Under the pieces are notes generated by a model. It worked only from the letters and a program-made list of their open reading frames with translations, was not told the DNA's origin and did no database searches. From assembly GCF_000772955.1 (NCBI RefSeq), contig NZ_JPVO01000051.1:62001-126000 (forward strand): 64,000 nt of DNA, in the 5' to 3' direction. The DNA is from Ureibacillus sinduriensis BLB-1 = JCM 15800 (GTDB taxonomy: Bacteria > Bacillota > Bacilli > Bacillales_A > Planococcaceae). Positions 12,168-64,000 of this stretch are shown here, in pieces (the stretch's first letter is position 1; each line of letters begins with the position of its first letter). The translations under genes and the position numbers were made by a program.

Positions 12168-13259
12168 TTAAGCTACTTGTTCATCTTTTGGTCTGGCAAA
12201 TATCATCCGTCCCGCCGATGTTTGCAGAACACTCGTCACCGTCACGGTAATCGCTTGACCGATATAGCTTCTTCCACCTTCCACAACAATCATCGTTCCG
12301 TCATCCAAATAGGCAACGCCTTGATTTTGTTCTTTTCCATCCTTAATAACAACCACCTGCATATCTTCTCCTGGGATGACAACAGGCTTCACGGCATTCG
12401 CCAGATCATTGATATTTAGTACTTGAACATGATGCAGATCACAAACCTTATTCAAATTAAAATCATTTGTTAAAATTTGGGCACCGATTTTCTTTGCAAG
12501 CCGCACTAACTTTAAATCTACTTCCTGCACATCCTCAAAATCTTCTTCCGATATTTGCACAGTCGTGACACGCTCGTCTTGTAGTTTTTTCAACATATCC
12601 AACCCTCTTCGACCACGGGTGCGTTTCAGTGTATCCGATGAATCGGCAATATGCTGCAATTCCGTCAGAACAAATTGTGGAACAATAAGAATTCCTTCAA
12701 TAAACCCCGTCGAGGAGATGTCGGCTATTCGCCCATCAATAATAACGCTCGTATCCAACAATTTAAATACTTGCTTTTCTTCTGTTTGGATCAGAGAATC
12801 AACCGACTTCTTCTTTTGCCCTGGATTGGATTTCGTAAATATTTGGCCGAGTTCCTCACGTTTTGTAAACCCAACACGGAATCCTAAATAACCTAGTAAA
12901 ATAGATAGTATGATTGGTAAAAACTCCGTGATGACTGGTATTTGGATTCTCTCAATCGCAAAACCAATCAGGAAAGCAACCGTTAACCCTACAATTAACC
13001 CAAGGGACCCAAATAAAAGGTCTGCAGCCGGTATTTTAAATAAAATCCCTTCCATCCAAACAACCAGCTTTACAAAATAATCCGATAAAGCAAAAGATAA
13101 AACGAATAACAAAATTGCACCCAATGCTACCGATACATATGGATTGTTAAGCCAGGGATTAGATGATAAATTAATAAACTCGTATAATGGCGGTAAGAAA
13201 ACAAAACCTAACGCTCCTCCGATAAATAAGAAAGCAATTTGTATTACTCTTTTCAACAT
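12168..13259 (-). CDS. yacL: YacL-type membrane protein with PIN and TRAM domains
   Basis: 363 residues from ATG 13259 (MLKRVIQIAFLF); the GTG at 13268 lies inside the ribosome-binding site AAGGAGGTGG. Four hydrophobic spans occupy about residues 5-130. A PIN nuclease domain follows (LLDTSVIIDGRIADI; VLTELQHIADSSD; GRRGLDMLKKLQDE; ILTNDFNLNKV), then a TRAM-like domain (GVAYLDDGTMIVVEGGRSYIG). YacL-type proteins are proposed RNases; the substrate is unknown. It normally follows disA; here it follows radA directly. Confidence 0.92.
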   Translation of the reverse strand: MLKRVIQIAFLFIGGALGFVFLPPLYEFINLSSNPWLNNPYVSVALGAILLFVLSFALSDYFVKLVVWMEGILFKIPAADLLFGSLGLIVGLTVAFLIGFAIERIQIPVITEFLPIILSILLGYLGFRVGFTKREELGQIFTKSNPGQKKKSVDSLIQTEEKQVFKLLDTSVIIDGRIADISSTGFIEGILIVPQFVLTELQHIADSSDTLKRTRGRRGLDMLKKLQDERVTTVQISEEDFEDVQEVDLKLVRLAKKIGAQILTNDFNLNKVCDLHHVQVLNINDLANAVKPVVIPGEDMQVVVIKDGKEQNQGVAYLDDGTMIVVEGGRSYIGQAITVTVTSVLQTSAGRMIFARPKDEQVA

Positions 13260-28125: not shown

Positions 28126-28336
28126 TAGTAATATATATTGTTTGAGCTGCGAAAATATATCTAAAACTTCTATTTTTTAAAAGAAATCTTTTCGACAAAC
28201 AGATAAACTGGTAGAAAGAACATAGTGTTTAAAAGAGAACCAACAAGGAATGTTTCTGGTATATATGGTCTACAATAGTAGAGCCAATGAAAATGAATAT
28301 TGTATACTTGATTTACTACAAATTATAGGAGAGTTT

Positions 28337-58938: not shown

Positions 58939-59610
58939 TTAATTTACTTCTAGTAAATTCTTTTTCAACCAAAGCACCTCTATAACGGACTGGGGATCCA
59001 CTCCGTATAACTCCTGCGTTTTATAAGCATGGACATTTGAGTAGATTTCCTTCATTTTCTCCAATACCCACTCTTCATTAGCTTCGGCTTCGGACCAGCA
59101 ATAAATATCCATCTTGCTTAATTCCTTTGAAACATTGTGGATCCTTTCATAGCAGATTTCCTCCATTCTCTTGAAACCATTTCGTTCATAAAATCGAATT
59201 CGCTTCCCAGAGTCGGGATCTTCCATAGTAATCGGTTCGACTTCTAGTATAATGGCCTTTCCCCTTTCCTTGAACATTTCCAGAACCTTTCCACCAATTC
59301 CTTTACCCCGGGCATTTCCTGATACTAAAATATAATCTATAAATATATAATCCAGCTGTTCAAAATAAACAACTACGTAATCATCCGCTTCCAATACTTG
59401 ATATATTTCAGTTTTTTCTTTTAGAAGAATTTCAAAATGTTGCTTTGATTTCATTTCTCTTTCTGGAAAATATTCTTTCAATCTTTCATACCAATCTTTT
59501 CCTCCGAATAATTTCCCAACCAGACCTTCTCTTCTTTGAATCAGCAATTTAAATTTCTCCCTTGGTATCAAATTTTTTCCCCATTCACAGAAGACTGAAA
59601 TTTTAGCCAT
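58939..59610 (-). CDS. GNAT family acetyltransferase
   Basis: 223 residues. The acetyl-CoA-binding motif A is YILVSGNARGKGIGGKVLEMFKE (R/Q-x-x-G-x-G/A pattern as RGKGIGG), followed by IRFYERNGFKRM. The N-terminal 70 residues and the C-terminal 60 residues (with WSEAEANEEWVLEKMKEIY) are extensions of unknown role. Substrate unknown. Convergent with the ECF gene and divergent from the ATP-grasp gene. Confidence 0.88.
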   Translation of the reverse strand: MAKISVFCEWGKNLIPREKFKLLIQRREGLVGKLFGGKDWYERLKEYFPEREMKSKQHFEILLKEKTEIYQVLEADDYVVVYFEQLDYIFIDYILVSGNARGKGIGGKVLEMFKERGKAIILEVEPITMEDPDSGKRIRFYERNGFKRMEEICYERIHNVSKELSKMDIYCWSEAEANEEWVLEKMKEIYSNVHAYKTQELYGVDPQSVIEVLWLKKNLLEVN

Positions 59611-59693
59611 TCACATTTTATCATTAGCCTCCTCGACAAATACATAGGATATAATGTAAAAATTGTTAATGTTTTTAAAACATTTAGAATACT

Positions 59694-59721
59694 TTGTCGA
59701 AAGGATTTTAATTCCTATTAT
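59694..59721 (+). promoter_or_regulatory. Possible promoter of the ATP-grasp operon
   Basis: TTGTCG (59694-59699), 16-nt spacer, TATTAT (59716-59721). It is the best sigma-A-like match before the ATG at 59803. CATAGGATA near 59643 also fits a sigma-K -10 without a clear -35. Confidence 0.35.
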
Positions 59722-59802: not shown

Positions 59803-61023
59803 ATGCATGCAAATCACAACCAAACAACTGCACTACTTGGATGGAGTCTACAAGCAATAGAAGCAATCGATAAAATGAGTCGTCCTTACGTTGTCGTGGG
59901 ACCACCTGAATTTCAATCCTTTGCCGATAAAAATGAAATCTTATTCATACCATGGCAGTTCAATGTTTCAATTGAACAATCATTTGAACTATATGAGAAG
60001 TTAAGGGAACTAAATGTCAAAGTAGCGGTTCCAATTTACGAAGAAACCGTGGAATGGGCTGGCATGATGAATTCTTTACTATTTGAAAATCCTAAACTAT
60101 ATTACAAATCCCTTCTATTGCGAGATAAGGGATTGATGAAGCGTCGTGCTCACCTAGCCGGTCTGCGAGTAGGCGTCTTTGAAGAAGCCTACAATAAAGA
60201 AGATATCGTTCGATTTTTCAAGAGAATGAATCAAGCATTAGTAAGACTTGAAAATGATCAACTAGATCCAATCCACGTAAAACCATTTGATAAGGCTGGT
60301 ACTGTAGGACATCGAATGATTAGAGAAGAAAAGGATATCGAAGAAATTGAAGATGAAGAATTCCCCCTTTTGATGGAAAGCCACTTAGAAGGACAGGAGT
60401 TTTCATGTGAAGCTTTTATCCATGATGGCAAAGTGAGATTCCTGAACATAACGGAATATGTCAAACTTGGTCATTCCAATTTTGTTCCAGCCTCTCCCGC
60501 GCTAGAAAAGTGGCGACCTCAAATAAGAGAAGAAATTGAAAAACTTGTAGTTGCCTTTGAAGTAACTCATGGAATTATACATCCTGAGTTTTTCGTTACA
60601 CCTGATGGCAAAATTTACTTCGGGGAAGTAGCGAACCGTATTCCCGGTGGCCATATCTTTGAGCACATCGAGAGAGCTTACGGCTTTAGTGCATATCAAG
60701 GCCAGGTTCTTTGTTGCGACCCGGATACATCGGAACAAGAACTAAGTGCCTTTTTCCCGAAAGAGGTCATTTCGGCAAAAGGACATTCCGGTAATTTGAT
60801 GGTCTATCCGAGGGTAAGATCCATTACGAGATTGGATATCCCAAAAGAGCTTAAAAATCACCCTTATTTTGTAAAACATAATATGTTTATTCCGGCTTCA
60901 TCTAAAGTGGCGGAACGTGTAGGTTTCGGTAACCATTACGGTTCCATAAACTTTTTCGGGGAAGACGCTCATGAAATGAGAAGACTTTTAGAAGAATTTG
61001 AACAACATAATTTCTATCTATAA
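59803..61023 (+). CDS. ATP-grasp ligase
   Basis: 406 residues. ATP-grasp architecture: N-terminal preATP region (LLGWSLQAIEAIDK, VVVGPPE), the ATP-binding Lys160 in HVKPFDKAGTVGHRMI, the substrate/ATP Glu in LLMESHLEGQEFSCEAF, and the metal site Glu262, Glu275 and Asn278 in PEFF...YFGEVANRIPGG. All key acids are present, so it should catalyse ATP-driven carboxylate-amine or thiol ligation through an acyl-phosphate. The substrate is unknown. It is 15 nt upstream of the next gene. Start by GGGGGA 10 nt before the ATG. Confidence 0.88.
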   Translation: MHANHNQTTALLGWSLQAIEAIDKMSRPYVVVGPPEFQSFADKNEILFIPWQFNVSIEQSFELYEKLRELNVKVAVPIYEETVEWAGMMNSLLFENPKLYYKSLLLRDKGLMKRRAHLAGLRVGVFEEAYNKEDIVRFFKRMNQALVRLENDQLDPIHVKPFDKAGTVGHRMIREEKDIEEIEDEEFPLLMESHLEGQEFSCEAFIHDGKVRFLNITEYVKLGHSNFVPASPALEKWRPQIREEIEKLVVAFEVTHGIIHPEFFVTPDGKIYFGEVANRIPGGHIFEHIERAYGFSAYQGQVLCCDPDTSEQELSAFFPKEVISAKGHSGNLMVYPRVRSITRLDIPKELKNHPYFVKHNMFIPASSKVAERVGFGNHYGSINFFGEDAHEMRRLLEEFEQHNFYL

Positions 61024-61038
61024 GGAGTGAACATAAAG

Positions 61039-63081
61039 ATGAGTCCAGCTGTAACGACCGAAAGTAAGACAACCATCAAGACAAAACGAAGAACAACAGG
61101 TACTTCCAGAACCAGAAAGGCAACAAAACCAATCGACCTTCTTGAAACCAAATTTGCCGAGGCACTAAACACGCTGAACCTTGCCAAACCTTTCGCTAAA
61201 AGCCTTTATCAAACCGACGTTTTCCAGTTGGCAAATGAGCTGGCATGTGTCGATGGTGGAATGGTTGTTCTGGATAAGTATGCACATCAATTTGACCAAG
61301 CAGGAGTTTTCCTTTCCGGCGACTGGGAAGATCCAACGAAATTGCAGCCCCCTTTCGTAGGCAATTCATTAAGATTGAGAGGTATTTATTCAATTCTAGA
61401 GTTATTAAGCGAAATGCGTATGCTTTCCATCGCTAAAGGAACCTATAGGCATGACAGTATTACGAAGGAGGCAGCTTGTGCTTTTTTGAATGAGGTAGTT
61501 GCCCTAAACCTAGATTTACTCTCTCCACAAGAAACAACAGAAGAAGCAGATCCACCAGAGGAACACCTAATACGGGCGCATAATTTGTTTACTTATCTTG
61601 GGCAAGAACTATCCCTGAAAGAAGTAGCCGAGCAAATGATTATAGAGATTGATCGATTAGCCGTGCAACGCCCCATCATTACTCGCAGAATTGCGGAAAT
61701 GATTCTATTATCCAAGCAATTGGCAACAAGCGAGCTTGATGGAAATACATTAGATGCTCTAAAAAAATATACACAAGCTGTCGAAGCCCCTACACCCCTA
61801 AGTAAAGAAATCTCGAACCAAAGGGAATATCGATTAAGACTCGAGCAGGCGACAGAGGAAGAGATATTTGTTGAAACAAAATTATTTGGCCAATCCATGA
61901 ATGAGACAGGGCTTGTTTCGCCTTTCCATGCAGTGCTGCTCCGCTTTTTGAATCGAAAGAACCCAGATGCACTTCCGACTGCACTTTCTTTAGCCGACAC
62001 AGGTAGGGCAAGCTTTGATGAAAGTAAAAAAACTATTCAGGATATTATTCAATTTGCAATCTATCCAGAAACAAAACAATCCATTTACGGTCTCTCTGGA
62101 ATGTTGAATCGCGGCGTACTGAAGATTGATGCCATCGAACATTCGATCCGGCAACTATTTGAGCTTCCAATTCATGGTGAAGTAAGAAAAGCTCTTTCCA
62201 CTTTTGTGGGTGAACAAAGTGGAATCAGTATAAACGGGATTCTGATTGCTGGAACAATAAGTGTACTTGGTCAACCACTTGGGATAGCACAAGGCCAAAA
62301 TCCAATTTGTCAATCTGCTAGAGCAATCTCGCTTTGGGCTCAATTTGAGCCTGGTCAATTGTTAAATTATATTACGCGCGCCGCACGAGATAACACTATG
62401 GAAATGATTTTCGAAGGTGAATCAATCCATTCCAACCTATTAATCGATGGAACTTCGAATAATATTCCACTCGACTTGGATATCGTTTCGATTCTCCTGG
62501 TTCCACATCTTGAGAAAATTTACAACGAGATGATTAAACGGACATTGCTTCGTGGTGAGGATGCACATAAGTGGGTAAACCGCGAGTTTTATGGCGAATG
62601 GATTCCGAGTGGTTTCTTTAACGTTATTGATGGTCATACATTAAGTGTTAAAAATTATTCAGCATTTATAAAAATGTTTTACGCAACACATCACCCTGAG
62701 TACAATGAAGGCTCAAAACTGATTTATCCAAATCCAGTAGGTATTTTCCTTACAAATGTTCATGGAGAACTTCTTGGCCTTCATGCTGTATCGATTCAAA
62801 GAATTGAGAGTGACCATAATGGGGATTATCGAATTTACTTCTTTAATCCAAATAGTGATAGTACACAGAACTGGGGCCAAAACATTAAAGCAAGTGTCTC
62901 GGGCTTTGGTGAATTGGAAGGGGAATCTTCCTTGCCGTTCCATGAATTTGTCTCCAGGATGTATGCCTATCACTATGACCCTTATGAACAAGGTGATACT
63001 TATATGGTAGAGGATCATCTAGTTGGAAAAATTGAGGCACTCGCCAAGGAGAGTTGGGGCAAAAACTATATGTGGACCTAG
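61039..63081 (+). CDS. Large protein of unknown function with papain-like C-terminal region
   Basis: 680 residues from ATG 61039 (MSPAVTTESKTTIKTKRRTT) with AAGGAG upstream; GTG 61027 overlaps that site. A basic, Thr-rich tail (1-30) precedes a helical region (about 35-400). The C-terminal third has Cys424 in GQNPICQSARAISLW (with Gln420 nearby), His582 in LGLHAVSIQRIE, and Asn603 in YRIYFFNPNSDSTQNWG. This matches the order and spacing of a papain-like Cys-His-Asn site. No signal peptide. Operon with the ATP-grasp gene; paralogous to the next gene. Fold assignment is inferred. Confidence 0.7.
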   Translation: MSPAVTTESKTTIKTKRRTTGTSRTRKATKPIDLLETKFAEALNTLNLAKPFAKSLYQTDVFQLANELACVDGGMVVLDKYAHQFDQAGVFLSGDWEDPTKLQPPFVGNSLRLRGIYSILELLSEMRMLSIAKGTYRHDSITKEAACAFLNEVVALNLDLLSPQETTEEADPPEEHLIRAHNLFTYLGQELSLKEVAEQMIIEIDRLAVQRPIITRRIAEMILLSKQLATSELDGNTLDALKKYTQAVEAPTPLSKEISNQREYRLRLEQATEEEIFVETKLFGQSMNETGLVSPFHAVLLRFLNRKNPDALPTALSLADTGRASFDESKKTIQDIIQFAIYPETKQSIYGLSGMLNRGVLKIDAIEHSIRQLFELPIHGEVRKALSTFVGEQSGISINGILIAGTISVLGQPLGIAQGQNPICQSARAISLWAQFEPGQLLNYITRAARDNTMEMIFEGESIHSNLLIDGTSNNIPLDLDIVSILLVPHLEKIYNEMIKRTLLRGEDAHKWVNREFYGEWIPSGFFNVIDGHTLSVKNYSAFIKMFYATHHPEYNEGSKLIYPNPVGIFLTNVHGELLGLHAVSIQRIESDHNGDYRIYFFNPNSDSTQNWGQNIKASVSGFGELEGESSLPFHEFVSRMYAYHYDPYEQGDTYMVEDHLVGKIEALAKESWGKNYMWT

Positions 63082-63134
63082 ATCTCGGCTTAGAGTAGCT
63101 ATTTTTAAAAATGTATAGAAATATAATTTATTGT

Positions 63135-63170
63135 AAAGACCCGAAAATCATTTTCGTGGTCTTTTACTTT
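63135..63170 (+). terminator. Terminator after the 680-residue gene
   Basis: AAAGACC-CGAAAAT / ATTTTCG-GGTCTTT (63135-63148 with 63150-63164), one bulge, then TACTTTTG. It separates the two paralogues. Confidence 0.75.
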
Positions 63171-63334
63171 TGAGTAGATCGTCTATTGTAATCATTTTAA
63201 TTCCGTGGTACATTTACCAAAATTTTAAATATTCTAATAATAATATATTTATACTTTTTTCACTTTAAATGTTTAAAAACCAGCATTAATGTAAATTGTA
63301 ATTTATAGGAAATAAGCTGAAAGGAGAATGAGAT

Positions 63335-64000
63335 ATGGGACTTTACCTATTTTCATCTGAAAATTCATTTCAAAAAGCCTTTCAACAATTATTGCAAGCA
63401 CCCTTATTTAGTAAAAAACTATATCAGGAAGCAGTTTTAATCGAAGCCATGAATCTTCTTAAAGAACCCAATGGTCTAGGCAAAGTTTATCAATATGCCC
63501 CACTTTTTGATCAGGCAGGTCTGTTCTTGGGGAAACCTTGGGAAGATGTCCGAAAACTTGATGCCAATTTGGTTAGAGGGACTCTTCATGCAGGTGGCAC
63601 CACTGCTGCTGCAGAATCCTTAAGTGATTTAAGAATCCTTGCAATTGCAAAAGGTGATTATGTCCATCCCGGTATGACCTCTCTTGAAGCTGCACAATTT
63701 TTAACAAAGGTTTTGGCCCTAAATATTGATTTGCTGATTATGAAGGAAACAGAGGAAAACCGAGTAAAGCAACTATATAAAGACGAACAGGCTTCGAAGC
63801 TTTTATATTTTATTTCGGAGCACTGTTTTTCACCTCGCGTTTATGAAAACCTCTATCAAGAGGTTGATAATCTTGCCGTACAGAGGCCCATTGTCACGAA
63901 AAAAATTATGAAGCTTATTGCCAGTGCACAAAAGCTGGCAGGAGGACTTGATGGCATTAGTTCCAAGTTGAAGGAGTATGAAAGGGCTGTTTATTCACCA
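63335..64000 (+). CDS. Paralogue of the 680-residue protein, truncated by the window end
   Basis: Open from ATG 63335 through the last base (222 codons), with GAAAGGAGAATGAGAT upstream. It aligns along its whole visible length with residues about 45-250 of the preceding protein. Shared segments include FDQAGLFLGKPWED, LRILAIAKGDY, LALNIDLL and LAVQRPIVTKKI. It lacks the basic N-terminal tail. The visible part stops before the position where the Cys would be. A terminator and 250 nt separate it from the first copy, so it may have its own promoter. Confidence 0.8.
   Translation, partial: MGLYLFSSENSFQKAFQQLLQAPLFSKKLYQEAVLIEAMNLLKEPNGLGKVYQYAPLFDQAGLFLGKPWEDVRKLDANLVRGTLHAGGTTAAAESLSDLRILAIAKGDYVHPGMTSLEAAQFLTKVLALNIDLLIMKETEENRVKQLYKDEQASKLLYFISEHCFSPRVYENLYQEVDNLAVQRPIVTKKIMKLIASAQKLAGGLDGISSKLKEYERAVYSP

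Follow-up and report, generated by a model that had tools for sequence, protein, structure and literature searches.

An ATP-grasp ligase gene and its papain-motif partner in Ureibacillus sinduriensis and relatives look like an undescribed small amino-acid pathway

What do an ATP-grasp ligase and two tandem copies of a protein without a family do together at one end of a 64,000-nucleotide stretch of the Ureibacillus sinduriensis BLB-1 genome? This stretch, hereafter the window, comprises bases 62001–126000 of contig 52 in a genome of 4.0 Mb, and the ligase, partner copy A and partner copy B form a same-strand run on its plus strand. The open reading frames (ORFs) are as an initial annotation of this DNA had described them, namely an ATP-grasp gene, a 680-residue protein 15 nt later and then a paralogue. 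The ligase and its partner have the appearance of a small undescribed pathway for making or remodelling an amino-acid compound within the cell; with roughly even confidence, we read it as leading to an acylated amino-acid metabolite with an amide linkage, formed intracellularly. The genes on which this reading turns are:

59803–61023, plus strand: ATP-grasp carboxylate-amine ligase, predicted L-amino-acid-ligase branch, 406 aa (ORF and Pfam)
61039–63081, plus strand: papain-motif partner copy A, 680 aa (ORF and conserved residues)
62290, 62308, 62782 and 62845, plus strand: codon starts of the candidate active-site residues Gln, Cys, His and Asn of copy A
63335–64000, plus strand: papain-motif partner copy B, truncated to 222 aa by the window edge

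The partner was found in 35 of the 261 genomes searched in the order and the ligase (at E ≤ 1e-30) in 33, all of them among the 35 with the partner. In each of these 33 genomes the partner gene adjoins the ligase, as judged by comparing the coordinates of the two matches by eye. The initial annotation had offered a failure of the two genes to co-occur as a possible refutation; they do co-occur, and an amide-ligase-type enzyme here genuinely forms a unit with a protein of papain-type residue pattern, a unit that lies outside the family libraries searched. Remnants were also recovered. One genome (G100) carries a truncated partner and a 117-nt scrap of the ligase, while another, from a species of the same genus as the window (G241), retains a 44-residue scrap of copy B (L077 3899–4030, 98% identical to copy B of the window) and no ligase at E ≤ 1e-30. 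The scrap is flanked by the transpeptidase gene and an ECF transporter gene, which suggests that G241 lost the whole unit as a block. The unit occurred in 13 of 398 genomes drawn from the class, six of them outside the order and all six with an adjacent pair, and in one of 398 drawn from the phylum, the window itself. A plasmid search added one Halomonas replicon with an adjacent pair; its partner ORF (L082 8950–11031) loses similarity near the end, as if frameshifted, which may be decay or sequencing error. Phages gave no match to the unit, and none of the 17 stretches of viral contigs that matched a pattern encodes a relative. The unit is thus scattered and far from universal. A description of the ligase–partner pair was not found among the matches listed in the literature searched, which does not prove its absence.

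The ligase meets the curated ATP-grasp threshold (Pfam ATP-grasp_4, PF13535, 35.3 bits against a cut-off of 27), and the solved chain closest to it is an L-amino acid ligase (PDB 4wd3, E = 3e-9, residues 180–301). Invariant columns in an alignment of 20 ligases, taken from 20 of the 32 pair loci scored for acetyltransferases below, include H260-P-E262 and F273-G-E-V-A-x-R279, of which we take E262 and E275 to be the metal binders of the ATP-grasp superfamily. These matches suggest that the ligase belongs to the L-amino-acid-ligase branch, with a putative action on free amino acids that follows the name of the 4wd3 entry. To our knowledge, L-amino acid ligases are stand-alone dipeptide makers, whereas here a member of the branch stands beside a papain-motif gene in every one of the 33 order genomes that have it.

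The partner was without a family in the initial annotation and it stays so, as no convincing match was obtained in Pfam, NCBIfam, PHROGs, PADLOC or PDB sequences. Copy A hit no family in the first four collections and no PDB sequence at the limits used. We judged the remaining matches to be due to chance: copy B to one PHROG (E = 0.018) and to Pfam CTD9 (E = 0.098), the window fragment of copy B to Rad50_Sulf (E = 0.012) and PRK08699 (E = 0.13), and the profile of alignment A1 (28 partner rows) to one PDB chain (E = 0.66). A Pfam scan of the 28 A1 members returned 21 weak scattered families, the commonest being AP5B1_middle (6 of 28, best E = 0.0033), likewise judged a chance helical match. 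The BtrH_N profile (PF14399) matched neither copy A nor any of the 28 A1 members in the Pfam scan, and the BtrH_N match of the window genome lies at a different locus.

Four partner residues, Q422, C428, H586 and N607 (residue numbers count from the GTG start and drop by 4 if the ATG start is used), are invariant in all 20 rows of alignment A3, which were chosen for diversity, in all 28 of A1, and in 29 of 29 when the truncated L051 is included. C428 is the sole invariant Cys of the 20 A3 rows; Gln lies 6 residues before it, His 158 after it and Asn 21 further on, with majority forms GQGLNPTCQSAR, LGLHA and YFYNPN around the candidate site residues. The order Cys, His, Asn of papain-like enzymes (Pfam clan CL0125) is therefore present in the partner, and papain has the same Gln spacing before Cys and the same Cys-His-Asn order. 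By crude propensities over the 20 rows, the N-terminal part of the protein is rich in helix and has 25 invariant columns, and the C-terminal part is mixed and has 64; the C-terminal 289 residues thus contain 64 of the 89 invariant columns, and His and Asn lie in strand-like stretches 21 residues apart. The papain-like layout, as given in an excerpt of PMC10318531, places Cys at a helix start, followed by His and then a polar third residue. The papain-like site proposed by the initial annotation thus holds as a residue pattern, a motif match, and the fold itself remains a prediction.

Both partner copies look as if they have been kept working. In the tree, all eight copy-B sequences group together with 100/100 support; their branch is long (1.67 changes per column) and joins the likewise long branch of Halomonas, which leaves the date of the duplication uncertain. 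Copy B retains all four candidate catalytic residues and lacks roughly the last 25–35 residues (the C-terminal tail) of copy A. Both copies appear constrained because dN/dS among three species is low (copy A 0.065–0.081, copy B 0.079–0.095, ligase 0.043–0.067), with dS in this comparison near saturation at 0.9–1.6. The whole of copy B in the parent contig has 613 aa (L002 5335–7176) and ends at 65176, 1,176 bases beyond the window. The initial annotation had thought that the right edge might hold more genes, but only the rest of this paralogue was added; the next gene is a gamma-glutamyltranspeptidase on the opposite strand, convergent with copy B. Among the 11 loci of the window's clade, three have this gene beside the unit. 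The ATG at 61039 likely is the start of copy A, rather than the longer GTG at 61027, because the latter falls within a stretch resembling a ribosome site (AAGGAGTG). Copy A of the window's clade also bears an extra basic, Ser/Thr-rich N-terminal tail (61039–61140) that is mostly missing in aligned relatives outside the clade.

What tells most about function is that this one gene pair has acetyltransferases of two kinds beside it. The neighbour in the window is:

58939–59610, minus strand: GNAT-family acetyltransferase, divergent from the pair (Pfam Acetyltransf_7, 32.1 bits, cut-off 27)

Forty pairs are known (33 in the order, six outside it and that of Halomonas), of which 32 were scored for acetyltransferases; seven pairs without enough flank and L078, at a contig end, were left unscored, and L037 (a lone partner) and L051 and L077 (remnants) are not pairs. 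An acetyltransferase gene adjoins 26 of the 32, its kind differing by lineage. A short GNAT divergent from the ligase accompanies 22, being found in 11 of 11 pairs of genera g1 and g6 (the window's clade), 2 of 2 of g5, 8 of 12 of g13 and the single pair of family f2. AblB (TIGR03827 over cut-off), a putative beta-lysine N-acetyltransferase with a role in compatible solutes, stands beside four others, convergent downstream in three f164 genomes and co-directional upstream in one f174 genome. AblB was over cut-off in four of the eight genomes searched, and in all four the single AblB of the genome is the one that adjoins the pair. At E ≤ 0.001 the AblB model gave no hit to the window GNAT. This association, which the initial annotation missed, points to a small acylated metabolite. 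An excerpt of PMC2922099, on a different peptide-ligase system, proposes that acetylation of a side amine favours dipeptide formation. Lysine 2,3-aminomutase (AblA) was over cut-off in G964, G724, G822 and G893, the first three of which also have AblB, and not in G891 or G887; the window genome gave no AblA match and no AblB over cut-off, and so falls outside the AblA/AblB system. Since the aminomutase went unmatched in G891, G887 and the window genome, beta-lysine is a possible substrate in some lineages and not a general one.

Are other components shared between loci? Pfam scans of 10 neighbours of the window unit and of 10 in six other loci returned ordinary, locus-specific genes: sodium-sulfate symporter, UvdE and spore photoproduct lyase among those of the window contig, and superoxide dismutase, M24 peptidase, aminotransferase and BofA among the others scanned, with a PadR regulator directly following the pair in L073 and an ABC permease in L068. 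No family recurred in two scanned loci, and no shared exporter or regulator was seen among these 20 neighbours; nor was a transporter found that accompanies the pair from lineage to lineage. Neither these neighbours nor the next downstream gene included an asparagine-synthase-type gene by Pfam. Among 31 small ORFs with ATG starts, compared across three loci with three gaps apiece, the few that are shared lie in the conserved promoter gap. A shared 30-residue ORF in the GNAT–ligase gap was rejected as a precursor, as it coincides with conserved promoter DNA, and the gaps of the three loci yielded no precursor-like ORF and no graspetide precursor peptide gene beside the ATP-grasp gene. PADLOC defence models gave no hits for four proteins, and a search for a riboswitch that could reveal the substrate gave four Rfam hits in seven loci, none of them beside the unit.

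The spaces around the genes contain two further elements that bear on when the unit might be expressed:

59693–59721, plus strand: Spo0A-box-like TTTGTCGAAA at 59693–59702, overlapping the first hexamer of the promoter-like TTGTCG-16-TATTAT at 59694–59721
63133–63167, plus strand: terminator-like hairpin and T-rich tail between copies A and B (−13.8 kcal/mol, z −4.1, 0 of 200 shuffles as good)

TGTCGAA, the core of the Spo0A box according to an excerpt of PMC3485338, occurs 81 to 117 bases before the ligase start in 9 of the 11 loci of the window's clade. The box is present in 10 of the 11, since by alignment L036 has it further up, behind an insertion; L040 is without it. By chance, 0.003 to 0.06 cores would be expected per 300 bases in the clade loci, the species being close kin and not independent. 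The Spo0A-box-like 10-mer was found twice in the window against 0.36 expected, its second full copy lying at 28190–28199 on the minus strand. From the promoter site we predict that the unit is probably under Spo0A control in the window's clade. Overall, the region has barely more promoter-like sites than chance predicts (25 against 19.7, sd 4.2), and Spo0A itself was over cut-off in all 22 genomes searched, with or without the box. The insertion in L036 (G257, about 12400–12750) is a GC-rich stretch of ~250 bases within AT-rich surroundings in the GNAT–ligase gap, and perhaps a repeat element. Further downstream, copy B may be transcribed on its own, perhaps with its own promoter and timing, because the terminator-like hairpin parts the copies within their 253-base gap; a simple terminator scan did not report this hairpin. 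The corresponding gap in G246 (L035 10487–11655) spans about 1.2 kb, compared with about 0.25 kb in the window, and holds a 98-residue ORF on the opposite strand.

How might these parts work together? In the pathway that we favour, the ATP-grasp enzyme would work in the manner of L-amino acid (dipeptide) ligases, using ATP to activate a carboxylate that is then coupled to an amine; its substrates are presumed from its family. The neighbouring acetyltransferase may acetylate an amino group of the substrate or of the product. The Cys-His-Asn site of the partner, with Gln at the oxyanion position, would take the ligase product as acyl donor onto its cysteine and pass the acyl group to another amine or to water, so that the amide would be finished, exchanged or recycled; this step, amide transfer or hydrolysis, is predicted from the residue pattern only. 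The window's clade also has a second, diverged partner, and there the unit would probably answer to Spo0A, at the transition state or the onset of sporulation. The product most likely stays inside the cell because no transporter accompanies the pair across lineages.

Besides the L-amino acid ligases and the AblA/AblB pathway, two known systems come close to the unit. ATP-grasp ligase BtrJ of butirosin biosynthesis works with a papain-fold acyltransferase, BtrH. The latter is described in an excerpt of PMC10318531, and the fold of the partner here would be comparable only as predicted; in contrast to butirosin, no carrier-protein or aminoglycoside gene stands among the scanned neighbours and the partner has no similarity to the BtrH_N profile. 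The operon for the osmolyte N-acetylglutaminylglutamine amide (NAGGN; AsnO, Ngg and an aminopeptidase, in an excerpt of PMC8070244) likewise unites acetylation, amide ligation and a peptidase-type protein in one locus, but here no asparagine-synthase-type gene was seen among the scanned neighbours, the acetyltransferase is separate and a papain-motif protein replaces the aminopeptidase. By analogy, the unit may work like either system, yet we do not file it as a member of either.

Several findings weigh against the favoured pathway or parts of it. Lone second ligases occur in G238 (L157 6858–8087) and G239 (L156 7110–8342) with no partner nearby, and a lone second partner in G257 (L037 8440–10407) with no ligase nearby. 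Six of the 32 scored pairs (L045, L046, L053, L079, L073 and L082) have no adjacent acetyltransferase, which may not be obligate, and the two acetyltransferase kinds may reflect just a few ancient events. The window shows no enrichment of the Spo0A core, with 11 occurrences against 8.3 expected, and the exact core is missing upstream of all 22 ligase genes outside the clade (one with only 111 bases), because of which Spo0A control would be local to the clade. Within the partner, the other invariant residues H494, D512, H514, W516 and N518 could form a different active site. It is rather unlikely, in our estimate, that the partner is not papain-like but instead a novel enzyme or scaffold in which residues such as these make up the active site and C428 plays a structural part. 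The many other invariant polar residues, including D512-x-H514, would fit this, as would the lack of a convincing family or PDB match and of detectable kinship to the PepC or BtrH_N profiles by hhalign, with alignments of low diversity (Neff 2.2–2.7). Yet PepC and BtrH_N are both papain-like and the method does not match them with one another either, so that the negative comparison is no evidence either way. The alternative must also account for a Gln spaced as in papain before the sole invariant Cys, and for His and Asn in strand-like stretches at a constant distance, all in 20 of 20 rows.

If the partner does act on amides, what is the product? As a special case of the favoured pathway, it could be a compatible solute comparable to NAGGN, either a dipeptide with an N-acetyl group or an acetylated diamino acid, which the papain-motif protein would recycle once stress is over. 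Several observations fit this: AblB, which with AblA forms the N-acetyl-beta-lysine pathway, adjoins the pair in four genomes, three of which have lysine 2,3-aminomutase elsewhere, one member of the unit is in Halomonas, and the GNAT of a g13 locus (L043) weakly matches ectoine EctA (18.5 bits, E = 0.0016). The NAGGN operon, in which an acetyltransferase-ligase is joined with an aminopeptidase, is osmotically induced (PMC8070244, excerpt). However, the fourth AblB genome (G891) and the window genome have no aminomutase match, the EctA score is far under its cut-off of 120.6, no transporter goes with the pair and the clade promoter points to Spo0A instead, and we regard a compatible solute as unlikely. 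Far less probable still is protein tagging, in which the ATP-grasp enzyme would conjugate an amino acid or peptide tag and the papain-motif enzyme remove it, as the initial annotation had suggested for a protein tag. Ligases and papain-like enzymes do serve as writers and erasers elsewhere, and two partner copies could differ in target, but nothing found points to a protein substrate. No conserved tag or precursor ORF lies in the gaps of the three loci, the nearest solved relative of the ligase acts, by its entry name, on free amino acids, and acetyltransferases of two kinds stand beside the unit. We prefer a small metabolite over tagging because of the coupling, the joint loss, the acetyltransferase association and the lack of shared exporter, gap precursor or defence hits.

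A bolder form of the small-metabolite pathway, possible but doubtful, is that the partner founds a new papain-like family that transfers amides together with a dedicated ligase for amino acids; their pathway, undescribed so far, would lead to an acetylated peptide-like metabolite and, in Ureibacillus-type bacteria, would be switched on by Spo0A at sporulation entry and employ two diverged transferases. The pairing, the joint losses and the two acetyltransferase kinds make the proposal directly testable with three or four proteins, a promoter prediction and a locus that has been naturally lost in at least one species of the same genus. If true, it would add a new metabolite and a new enzyme family to the bacterial non-ribosomal routes to amide bonds, from proteins that are unnamed in the family libraries searched.

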